Assembly: GCA_002816715.1 (NCBI GenBank)
Contig: MUCJ01000038.1
Span: 1-53,070, forward strand
Source: SAR202 cluster bacterium Casp-Chloro-G3
Lineage (GTDB): Bacteria; Chloroflexota; Dehalococcoidia; Lucifugimonadales; UBA3495
Direction: 5' to 3'
DNA length: 53,070 nt
In this document: positions 46,895-51,528 of the stretch, one piece after another
Numbering within the stretch: position 1 is the stretch's first letter
Layout of the letters: each line of letters begins with the position of its first letter
Program-made: the position numbers and the translations under genes
The notes under the pieces: generated by a model
Seen by the model: only the letters and a program-made list of their open reading frames with translations
Databases searched by the model: none
What the model was told of the DNA's origin: nothing

Positions 46895-47758
46895 ATGTCT
46901 GGTTTTCGTCTATTGGCCTGCTTCGCCCATCCTGATGATGAGGCCTTTCCGGTGGGTGGTGTGCTGGCCGCCAACGCATCTAGAGGGGTGTCGGTGCGCC
47001 TGGTCACGGCCACCCTGGGTGAAGAAGGAGAGATACGCCAGGAAGGTTCGGCGACGCGGGAGACCATTGGTCAAGTCCGCCGCCAAGAGTTGTTCTGCTC
47101 TGCCCGTACCCTGGGGCTGGCCGAGCCGGTAGTGCTGAACTATCGGGACTCGGGCATGGTTGGAACACCGCCCAACCAGCATCCACAGGCTTTCGTCAAT
47201 GCCGACGCCCAGATAGTGGTGGAGCAATTGGTGCGCCAGATCCGCGGCTTTCGTCCTCAGGTGGTATTGACCTTCGGGCTAGACGGACTGTACGGCCACC
47301 CGGACCACATCGCCATCTGCAAGCACACCACCGAAGCGTTTCATCAGGCCGCCGATCCGTCTGCCTTTCCCAATCACCTATCCAATGGGCTAGAACCCCA
47401 CCAGCCCCTTCGCCTTTTCTACAGCGCGCGTCCCCATGGGTACCGCACCGAGATGGCCTTAAAGCTAAGAGCGGCCGGGGTGGACTTTCCCATGCCGTCG
47501 CCGGAGAGGGTCAACGACGGAGTTCCCGCCGAAGAGATTCATCTGGAATTGGATGTCTCAGAACAGTTGGAGGCCAAGATGGCCTGCATCCAGTGTCACT
47601 TTACCCAATTATCGCCTGATTGGCCCTATGACAAAATCCCCCGCGAAGTGGCCGCCGACATATTGGGCCGGGAGCACTTCATACGGGGTTGGCCTGAGGT
47701 GCAGCCCCGGGAGCTGGTGCACTTTGACTTTTTTGAGGGGATTTCGCCAGAGGACTAG
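46895..47758 (+). CDS. PIG-L family zinc deacetylase
   Basis: The 287-residue protein has the PIG-L zinc motif AHPDDE (His12, Asp15) and the third ligand in YGHPDHIAIC, with RLVTATLGEEGE and VVLTFGLDGLYGHPDH. Family members deacetylate N-acetylglucosaminyl compounds in mycothiol, bacillithiol, GPI or glycoside pathways. The substrate is not clear; the organism context of F420 could fit a mycothiol-like thiol, but no MshA or MshC is seen. It starts two bases after the VOC stop. Confidence 0.9.
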   Translation: MSGFRLLACFAHPDDEAFPVGGVLAANASRGVSVRLVTATLGEEGEIRQEGSATRETIGQVRRQELFCSARTLGLAEPVVLNYRDSGMVGTPPNQHPQAFVNADAQIVVEQLVRQIRGFRPQVVLTFGLDGLYGHPDHIAICKHTTEAFHQAADPSAFPNHLSNGLEPHQPLRLFYSARPHGYRTEMALKLRAAGVDFPMPSPERVNDGVPAEEIHLELDVSEQLEAKMACIQCHFTQLSPDWPYDKIPREVAADILGREHFIRGWPEVQPRELVHFDFFEGISPED

Positions 47759-49232: not shown

Positions 49233-49257
49233 AGAGGCCCAGATTATCTGAGCCTCT
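49233..49257 (-). terminator. Hairpin terminator at the end of the sulfur-carrier/thrC unit
   Basis: AGAGGC...GCCTCT with an inner CAGA/TCTG stem and TTA loop gives about 11 pairs and one mismatch. It lies 41 bases after the stop of the CysO-like gene on the minus strand. The T-tail is short. Confidence 0.6.
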
Positions 49258-49297: not shown

Positions 49298-49585
49298 CTA
49301 ATATAGCCCCAACCCGCCAGCCACCGCCGGGACAATGCTGATCTCGTCGCCCGACTTGGTGGAGGTGGACAGGCCATCCATAAAGCGGACGTCTTCGCCG
49401 TTAACGTAAATGTTGACGAAATAGCGCAATTCGCCGTTCTCGTCAATCAATCGCTCTTTGACGCCAGGATAGCTGGACTCCAGATTATCAATCATGTCTA
49501 CCAGGTTGGACTCGACCATTTCAACTTTGTCCAGCCCTCCGGTCATGCGCCGCAATGGTGTAGGAATACGAACTAAGACACCCAT
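49298..49585 (-). CDS. Ubiquitin-like sulfur-carrier protein, MoaD/ThiS family (CysO-like)
   Basis: The 95-residue protein VRIPTPLRRMTGG, LVDMIDNLESSYPGVKERL and RYFVNIYVNGEDVRFMDGLST strongly resemble mycobacterial CysO. It ends VPAVAGGLGLY. In active carriers the thiocarboxylate forms on a terminal GG; here GG is at 90-91 and four residues follow. If it is a carrier, a peptidase must trim the LGLY tail. It is the last gene of a minus-strand unit: threonine synthase, NIL protein, then this gene. AGGAGGAG precedes the ATG. A role in sulfur delivery to cysteine, homocysteine or methionine is inferred. Confidence 0.88.
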   Translation of the reverse strand: MGVLVRIPTPLRRMTGGLDKVEMVESNLVDMIDNLESSYPGVKERLIDENGELRYFVNIYVNGEDVRFMDGLSTSTKSGDEISIVPAVAGGLGLY

Positions 49586-49630
49586 CTGGGGAACTCCTCC
49601 TCTAGCTAAAACAATAGGCCAGACGCTGGT

Positions 49631-49873
49631 CTAGCCTGCGATTACATCTCCGCCCACCGGGTCCACGCGCACACCGGTGGAACTGACCCATTGTAGACCG
49701 CGCTCAATCTCTTCTTTTTCGCCGTCCAGTTCCAGCACCACCCAACCAAGCTTTTCCCGCACGTCGGCGCGGCGTATGTTGGTCACGATGTGAAAGTCCT
49801 GACCCAAGCGGTAAATGATCGGTTCCTTGACCATTTCAGACTCAAAGGTGAACTTGACCCGCTGTCGGTCCAT
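49631..49873 (-). CDS. Stand-alone NIL-domain protein
   Basis: The 80-residue protein reads MDRQRVKFTFESEMVKEPII, then YRLGQDFHIVTNIRRADVRE and GWVVLELDGEKEEIERGLQWV, the NIL (ferredoxin-like beta-alpha-beta) pattern. NIL domains occur at the C-terminus of MetN methionine ATPases and in proteins tied to homocysteine synthesis. It starts six bases after the threonine synthase stop and precedes the sulfur-carrier gene by 45 bases. The arrangement supports a link with methionine or homocysteine metabolism, probably by binding a small ligand. Confidence 0.9.
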   Translation of the reverse strand: MDRQRVKFTFESEMVKEPIIYRLGQDFHIVTNIRRADVREKLGWVVLELDGEKEEIERGLQWVSSTGVRVDPVGGDVIAG

Positions 49874-49879
49874 GCTCCA

Positions 49880-51169
49880 CTACCTTCTGATCGCAGTGCG
49901 TTCGCTGAGGGCCTCTTCAAAGGAACTGAGGGTGGGCTTAACCATCAGGGGGTTGACCACACCTTCCACGGCTTCCTGGGTCTTCAGCCCGTTGCCGGTA
50001 ATATAGGCCACTGTCAATTCGTCGGGTTTGATTGCCCCCGACTCAGCCAGTTGTTTCAAGGCAGAAATGACCACGCCGCCAGCGGTCTCGGTGAAAACTC
50101 CTTCAGTTTCGGCCAGCAGTTTAATGCCATCAACCACGTCTGATTCGGGCACGGTGTTGCCGCTGCCGCCGGATTTGTTGATCACGCGCAAGGCATAGAT
50201 GCCGTCGGCGGGATTGCCGATGGCCAGCGATTTGGCAATGCTGTTGGGACGCACCGGCTTGACTTGGGTCTGGCCTTCTTTCCATGCGGTGACAATGGGG
50301 CTGCACCCCTCGGCCTGAGCCATGTGCATCCTGGTGGTGACCGCCGGGTGGTGCACCGTATTCTGGTCGGGGCCAAAGGACATGGCGGCAACGCCGTCCA
50401 GCAACCCCAGGCAAGCCAACTCGTTAAAGCCCTTCCAGATTTTGGTGAACATGGCACCGGACGCTGAAGGAACCACCACATGTTCCGGTAATCGCCAGCC
50501 CAACTGTTCGGCAACTTCGTAGCCCAGGGTCTTGCTGCCCTCGGCGTAATAAGCGCGCATGTTGATGTTCACAAAGGCCCAGGGGTAGTTGTCACCCACC
50601 TCGCTGCACAGGCGGTTTACCTCATCGTAGGTGCCGTCTACCGCCACCATGGTGGGGCCATAGATTGCGGCGCCAATGACCTTGCCACGCTCCAGGTCGG
50701 AGGGGATGAAGACTACCGAGCGGATGCCCGCCCGGGCCGCGTGTGCGGCGACGCTACAGGCCAGGTTGCCCGTGGAGGCGCAAGCCAGAGTCTCAAACCC
50801 AAACTCCACCGCCTTGGTGGCCGCCACGGAGACGACCCGGTCTTTGAACGAGAAGGAGGGGTTGACGCTGTCGTTTTTGATGTACAGGTTGTTCAGGCCC
50901 AGCCGCTTGCCCAGGTTGGGGGCTTTGAGCAGCGGGGTATAGCCAGCCATGATGTCCACCGGATTCTCGCCGCTGGCTGGCAACAGGTCTTGATAGCGCC
51001 AGATGCTTAGCGGCCCCTTGGAAATTCGATCAGCGCTGATGACCTCGGAAATGGTGTCGTAATCGTACTCCACCTCCAACGGCCCAAAGCAGAAGTCGCA
51101 AACGTTGAGCGCTTCCGCCGGATACTCCCGGCTGCACTCCCGACATTTCAATCCGCTGACAAATGGCAC
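49880..51169 (-). CDS. thrC: Threonine synthase with N-terminal zinc ribbon
   Basis: The 429-residue protein has an N-terminal zinc ribbon (C9-x2-C12, C24-x2-C27), YTPLLKAPNLGKRLGLNNLYIKND and the PLP lysine in NPSFSFKDR (Lys109). CASTGNLACSVAAHAARAG forms the phosphate-binding loop and NYPWAFVNINMRAYYAEGSKTLGYEVAEQLGW is typical. It converts O-phosphohomoserine to threonine. The start is GTG at 51169 with GGAGG about eleven bases upstream. It heads a unit with the NIL protein and the CysO-like protein. Because the O-phosphohomoserine pool also feeds methionine synthesis, the operon could link both branches. Another beta-replacing activity, such as CysM-type sulfur transfer, cannot be excluded from sequence. 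Confidence 0.9.
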   Translation of the reverse strand: MPFVSGLKCRECSREYPAEALNVCDFCFGPLEVEYDYDTISEVISADRISKGPLSIWRYQDLLPASGENPVDIMAGYTPLLKAPNLGKRLGLNNLYIKNDSVNPSFSFKDRVVSVAATKAVEFGFETLACASTGNLACSVAAHAARAGIRSVVFIPSDLERGKVIGAAIYGPTMVAVDGTYDEVNRLCSEVGDNYPWAFVNINMRAYYAEGSKTLGYEVAEQLGWRLPEHVVVPSASGAMFTKIWKGFNELACLGLLDGVAAMSFGPDQNTVHHPAVTTRMHMAQAEGCSPIVTAWKEGQTQVKPVRPNSIAKSLAIGNPADGIYALRVINKSGGSGNTVPESDVVDGIKLLAETEGVFTETAGGVVISALKQLAESGAIKPDELTVAYITGNGLKTQEAVEGVVNPLMVKPTLSSFEEALSERTAIRR

Positions 51170-51528
51170 GGTTCTAGTTACCTCCGAAAATTAGGGACGC
51201 ATATACATAGAGGAGCCACCAATTTGGCTAGTGACAAGCACATTCGATGTTAACAAAGGCCCTATTTGTTGTCAAGAAATTGTGAGTGGCGGGACAATTG
51301 CCAAGTCGTGGAGAGTCCGCTCATGGTGACCCTTCGGCAATCTCAGGACAGGCTTGACGAACCATGCGTGGGCTACAGGGTTTGCTGTCCTGTCCTTCGA
51401 GAGCCGCAGGACGAGCGGTTAAGTGGCTCGGCCAAACTTTGTTACCAATGCATCACCCATCTGCCGCTAGCTTTGAACCAATGATATAATATCTTCGCTA
51501 TGCTTTTTTACAACTGCCACCATTTCTG
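51170..51528. other. Intergenic gap with family 3 repeats and an extended -10 promoter
   Basis: The 359-base divergent gap contains family 3 repeat arms at about 51310-51421 (CCGCTCATGGTGACCCTTCG and TCCTTCGAGAGCCGCAGGAC, GAGCGG). The thrC GGAGG site lies at its left end. TGATATAAT at 51482-51490 is an extended -10 element for the antiporter. No gene is visible. Confidence 0.65.
51482..51490 (+). promoter_or_regulatory. Extended -10 promoter for the antiporter gene
   Basis: TGATATAAT is a consensus extended -10 with the TGn motif, 38 bases before the ATG at 51529. No -35 hexamer is recognised, which extended -10 promoters do not need. The resulting leader is about 32 bases. Confidence 0.6.

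Follow-up and report, generated by a model that had tools for sequence, protein, structure and literature searches.

In the HcyS-HcyD-HcyF system of Wolinella the PLP partner is a MetY-type fold-I enzyme that uses O-acetylhomoserine, and carriers of the QbsE and HcyS types require removal of a tail. The homocysteine synthase of Streptomyces albulus reportedly uses the thiocarboxylate of a carrier. This system, MetM/MetO, comprises a SAM riboswitch, a carrier and activity converting O-phosphohomoserine to homocysteine, as far as the work is represented in PMC12172450 (Hasebe et al. 2024, Appl Environ Microbiol 90:e01247-24). A cyanobacterial MetM homologue has threonine synthase and deaminase activity and is without the riboswitch (PMC12172450).

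Our study examined a window of 53,070 nt (contig MUCJ01000038.1) from the SAR202 cluster bacterium Casp-Chloro-G3, the assembly of which comprises 1.36 Mb in 60 contigs and is 67 % complete. One tight unit on the minus strand encodes a MetM-type PLP enzyme (49880-51169, 429 aa, GTG start), then a stand-alone NIL-domain protein (49631-49873, 80 aa) and then a sulfur carrier of the CysO/MetO type (49298-49585, 95 aa), the genes being spaced 6 and 45 nt apart. The three ORFs lie where the preliminary description had placed them, and each was supported by a Pfam score above its cut-off (PALP, 218 bits; NIL, PF09383, 56.3 bits against a gathering cut-off of 24; ThiS, 53.5 bits). The unit is likely, in our view, to encode a homocysteine synthase of the MetM/MetO type to which a NIL subunit has been added. 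At the sequence level this reading draws on the identity of the parts, the conservation of their linkage, the relationship of the PLP enzyme to a riboswitch-controlled MetM-type enzyme and the lack of canonical enzymes; the chemistry of carrier thiocarboxylation and sulfur transfer is taken from the literature on Streptomyces. As in S. albulus, a ThrC-related PLP enzyme adjoins a sulfur carrier. Unlike in Streptomyces, the host belongs to the Chloroflexota, a NIL gene lies between enzyme and carrier, no SAM riboswitch was found at the unit, and the carriers of many species here bear a variable tail after the Gly-Gly.

Orthology to MetM was judged through the enzyme of Nonomuraea gerenzanensis, as a proxy for that of S. 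albulus. This enzyme was the single markedly closer match when plasmid records were searched (it lies on a chromosome filed among them), and it is 49-50 % identical to the window enzyme. Just upstream of it lies a SAM riboswitch (RF00162, 68.7 bits, threshold 44.4) and just downstream a carrier that is 53 % identical to that of the window. In a tree in which long branches were flagged by the program, the window enzyme, 17 orthologues and the Nonomuraea enzyme formed a clade with 100/100 support on a long stem, and the ThrC proteins of the window genome, Thermus, Bacillus and Arabidopsis fell outside it. The alignment revealed that all four ThrC active-site motifs are changed in the window and Nonomuraea enzymes, with NPTGSFKDRGM reading NP(S/T)xSFKDRVV, STGNT reading STGNL, NPHRLEGQKT reading RPYYAEGSKT and GNAGNI reading xASGxx, whereas the window genome's own ThrC retains all four. 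Clade and motifs are thus held in common with a riboswitch-controlled pair of the MetM/MetO layout.

The pair of PLP enzyme and carrier was present in all 38 loci from the family and order, and 32 of these also held NIL. Because a matching unit recurs in relatives, the arrangement is not one of chance. Conservation of the trio was surveyed further in named genomes of Dehalococcoidia, the SAR202 cluster and other Chloroflexota, where NIL was used to fetch 80 loci (the best 80 of 485 relatives, all of them Chloroflexota), and 77 of them contained all three genes; the exceptions were a contig that ends before the PLP gene (L150) and two loci in which no carrier was found (L158 and L174). Gene order varies, with MetM-carrier-NIL seen in L186 and L187. 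Across 400 genomes of the phylum, MetM occurred in 86 of the 93 genomes with NIL compared to 159 of 400 overall, as raw counts that ignore kinship, and 49 NIL-MetM pairs lay within 3 kb. NIL is not obligatory, since 73 of these genomes carry MetM without a NIL of this type.

Other routes to homocysteine were sought in 40 genomes. HcyBio/DUF39 (PF01837) was found in none of them, with a profile that matched three known control genomes, and the DUF39 pathway was rejected as the source of homocysteine on this basis. No real match to MetB/MetY (PF01053) was obtained in 23 of the 40, 13 of which are at least 90 % complete; the presence of a real PF01053 enzyme in the other 17 counts against our reading of the unit as a homocysteine synthase. 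MetX was judged by raw scores, as no control genome reached the curated cut-off, which was therefore uninformative, and none of the 40 genomes scored above about 154 bits. Eight genomes that are at least 90 % complete (G003, G021, G025, G029, G030, G033, G034 and G035) lacked HcyBio and scored no higher than 35 bits for PF01053 and 30 bits for MetX; all of them encode a homocysteine methyltransferase domain and the PLP enzyme paired with its carrier, six also having NIL. This is the pattern expected if the unit makes homocysteine. In the window genome neither MetX, MetB/MetY and DUF39 genes nor a methionine synthase were found, absences that carry little weight because the assembly is 67 % complete.

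The missing canonical homocysteine genes liken the lineage to the MetM/MetO system. Together with the clade and the Nonomuraea layout, they make a sulfur-carrier route to homocysteine, in which the PLP enzyme carries out the acceptor step on O-phosphohomoserine, the best reading of the unit, as the preliminary description had proposed; a complete canonical methionine pathway would have spoken against its proposal, and no canonical homocysteine route was found. It is very likely that SAR202, related Dehalococcoidia and further Chloroflexota, mostly uncultured, make homocysteine from O-phosphohomoserine with protein-bound sulfur by means of this unit. Their genomes should therefore not be called methionine auxotrophs, nor the genes named threonine synthase.

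In the pathway that we propose, the JAMM peptidase encoded elsewhere in the genome, or another peptidase, would trim the residues LGLY from the carrier and expose its Gly-Gly, and the single MoeB, also encoded elsewhere, would adenylate the carrier on the way to the thiocarboxylate. The PLP enzyme would remove phosphate from O-phosphohomoserine while the thiocarboxylate supplies sulfur at C-gamma, giving homocysteine; alternatively, a carrier-homocysteine adduct would form and be released, presumably by the JAMM enzyme. Methionine synthase would convert homocysteine to methionine, which NIL may bind and so damp the synthase, a step that we propose with less than even confidence. Residues after the carrier Gly-Gly and homocysteine as the product are also features of the Wolinella HcyS pathway, although the PLP enzyme here is a fold-II relative of ThrC. 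The trio had been thought to be without a known description. For the enzyme-carrier pair this is not so, as a system of this kind has been described before (MetM/MetO; Hasebe et al. 2024, as represented in PMC12172450); what is new is the widely conserved NIL component. No description of NIL in a MetM/MetO-type system was found in the literature covered, which took in Hasebe et al. 2024 by way of PMC12172450, and the original article may mention it.

The AlphaFold (AF2) model of the window NIL had a pLDDT of 91.6, and Foldseek returned MetN C2/NIL domains as its best matches (TM about 0.8, E about 1e-6). Asparagine N32 aligns with the methionine-binding N295 of E. coli MetN, mutation of which abolishes L-Met binding (PMC12357092), and is conserved at 90 % or more in 64 NIL orthologues. 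However, N32 is probably part of the name-giving NIL signature, and its match is therefore only suggestive of methionine sensing. Identity to MetN is about 20 %, and unlike MetN the window NIL stands alone beside a biosynthetic enzyme rather than being fused to an ABC ATPase. From the modelled fold and the aligned asparagine, we tentatively suggest that NIL may be the methionine feedback sensor of a three-part homocysteine synthase, in which a stand-alone MetN-type NIL would bind methionine and turn off the reaction of MetM with the carrier, so that feedback at the protein level would replace the actinobacterial SAM riboswitch; we place this reading somewhat below an even chance. It assigns the stand-alone NIL a specific function that can be tested.

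A docking or sulfur-handing role for NIL between carrier and enzyme, in place of methionine sensing, is a doubtful but serious alternative. It would suit the coupling of NIL to sulfur carriers even where no MetM is adjacent (L192), and the DUF39 route to homocysteine involves NIL-ferredoxin proteins (PMC5764234). However, the window NIL has no cysteine and no iron-sulfur motif and therefore cannot carry a persulfide, and its predicted fold and ligand asparagine match MetN C2; a purely docking role is conceivable.

Control of the unit by a SAM riboswitch was rejected, as Rfam gave no riboswitch match upstream of it, whether in the window or in the 32 relative loci searched. A riboswitch was not treated as defining for MetM/MetO because the cyanobacterial homologue is without one too, according to the account in PMC12172450. 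A candidate promoter on the minus strand (TTGACA-17-TAACAT with TG before the second hexamer, 51247-51275) lies about 80 nt upstream of the GTG and is a consensus match little above shuffles. A near-perfect inverted repeat, read from the minus strand about 40 nt beyond the stop codon of the carrier (49233-49257), may act as a terminator hairpin, its T run being weak, and was not listed by the consensus scan. A second terminator-like hairpin (49616-49637, minus), in the NIL-carrier gap, could lower expression of the carrier, such matches being no more frequent than expected from shuffles.

The closest PDB relatives of the window carrier were 4n6e_B (80.1 bits) and CysO of M. tuberculosis (3dwg chain C, 79 bits). 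The preliminary description had observed that the unit holds no metallopeptidase or adenylating enzyme, which is true of the unit, and both genes were located elsewhere in the genome. A JAMM protein with an intact HxHx7SxxD motif is encoded on contig 16, and the single ThiF/MoeB gene lies on contig 58, adjoining a cysteine synthase gene; among solved structures, the product of the latter comes closest to CysM of M. tuberculosis. A CysO-like carrier, MoeB, JAMM and a CysM-type enzyme in one genome recall the CysO-CysM-Mec+ system, although here the neighbour of the carrier is MetM-type rather than CysM and the unit has no JAMM. The two other carriers of this genome adjoin what we take, by sequence reading, to be MoaE (contig 32) and ThiG (contig 51), and because of these neighbours they were assigned to molybdopterin and thiamine.

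This inventory raises the alternative that the carrier is CysO, with the CysM-type enzyme beside MoeB as its main client and cysteine as the product, the PLP enzyme of the unit being a second client or side branch. The kinship of the carrier to CysO and of the enzyme beside MoeB to CysM would agree with this, as would locus L189, in which MetM, NIL, carrier, MoeB and CysM are united on one strand. We nevertheless regard it as improbable, since within the taxonomic order of the window genome the carrier always adjoins a MetM-type enzyme and not CysM, and relatives with near-complete genomes have additional carriers on which CysM could draw. The MetM-type enzyme and CysM may share one carrier, which would be compatible with the homocysteine synthase that we favour. 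MoeB directly follows the carrier in two relatives (L143 and L156). A separate sulfur-carrier cassette was seen in another relative, where JAMM, MoeB and two carriers, one of them a second CysO-like carrier, are packed on a contig of 3.3 kb (L071; G004 contig 61).

The C-terminus of the window carrier, IVPAVAGGLGLY, ends VPAVAGG-LGLY, so that four residues follow the Gly-Gly, their codons and the stop occupying 49298-49312 on the minus strand. The preliminary description had made this capped tail a defining feature, a view that comparison with relatives does not bear out. The Gly-Gly is invariant in the carriers of the 38 family and order loci, 13 of which end there, while 25 have 1-11 further residues without a shared sequence. 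The closest relative, with a PLP enzyme 91 % identical to that of the window, has a carrier that stops at the bare GG, and the preliminary description had itself named a lack of the tail among close kin as evidence against its proposal. Among 78 carriers of named genomes, from the loci fetched by NIL (best 80 of 485 relatives), 26 end in GG and 36 have a single extra residue. Tails vary even inside a genus, with 11 residues in G007 against none in G020, and none in G001 against LT in G016. LGLY is truly encoded, yet it is peculiar to the window genome, and we describe it as a lineage-specific extension. The frequency of bare GG ends and the variation within a genus indicate that the cap is not special, and the variable sequence and length led us to reject a conserved cap. 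An origin of tails in recent stop-codon loss is without general support, as 17 of 78 first tail codons were one step from a stop versus 29.5 % expected, which is no enrichment.

It has to be considered whether the tail is a functional safety cap, a regulated switch that holds the carrier in an inactive state pending cleavage by a dedicated peptidase. Tails on 25 of 38 orthologues, a JAMM gene in 38 of 40 genomes and the tail removal required by QbsE- and HcyS-type carriers would favour such a switch. We think that there is little chance of this, given the 13 orthologues with a bare GG, the differences in tail length and sequence within one genus, and JAMM genes that accompany tailed and tail-less carriers alike; no link between the tail and presence of the JAMM gene was seen in the 40 genomes. 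JAMM, which co-occurs with either form of carrier, might trim the tail, release a carrier-amino acid adduct, or do both. A short tail is probably tolerated on the carrier and trimmed, of which LGLY would be one case.

The PLP enzyme has a CxxC...CxxC zinc-ribbon motif at its N-terminus, is scored at 270 bits, above the cut-off, by the NCBIfam threonine synthase model TIGR00260, and found its best PDB matches among threonine synthases. It had been taken for a threonine synthase in the preliminary description. However, a separate, more canonical ThrC is encoded on contig 50 of the same genome, 32 % identical to the window enzyme, and directly upstream of it lies what appears, from reading its sequence, to be homoserine dehydrogenase. 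A reading in which the window enzyme truly is a threonine synthase, possibly with a moonlighting role, and carrier and NIL are unrelated neighbours could draw on the model and PDB matches and on the two activities of the cyanobacterial MetM homologue (PMC12172450). We judge this very unlikely in view of the more canonical ThrC, the position of the enzyme within the MetM-type clade, its changed active-site motifs and the carrier adjacency kept in 38 of 38 loci. That the carrier is a SAMP1-type ubiquitin-like protein modifier, as the NCBIfam SAMP1 score of 63.7 bits against a cut-off of 60 might suggest, is scarcely credible, because its PDB similarity is 80 bits to CysO versus 32 bits to SAMP1 and it always adjoins a PLP enzyme.

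A third threonine-synthase-like enzyme, from another clade with a PSAGN motif, is encoded on contig 29 of the window genome (L078:475-1689, plus) and is conserved in relatives. In the window itself, a PIG-L deacetylase (46895-47758, plus) resembles MshB of mycothiol synthesis at 168 bits, below the curated cut-off of 224.

NIL also occurs in other settings, and no match to it was found in the plasmid-record search. At locus L192 (4935-10082, plus), NIL, carrier, homocysteine S-methyltransferase, MoeB, an Rrf2-type regulator, JAMM and cysteine synthase lie on one strand with no MetM nearby, a second arrangement in which NIL is associated with methionine and with sulfur carriers. In Dehalococcoidia, NIL genes that stand alone were also seen at a distance from MetM and carriers (L193:5038-5295, plus; L195:4948-5181, minus), with neighbours that by eye we take to be CutA- and methylmalonyl-CoA mutase/epimerase-like. 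In the listed genomes of two genera of a Chloroflexota family (f54, loci L178-L182, for example L179:4991-6259, minus), a Gfo/Idh/MocA-type oxidoreductase carries NIL as a C-terminal fusion, and most genomes with this fusion carry MetM elsewhere.
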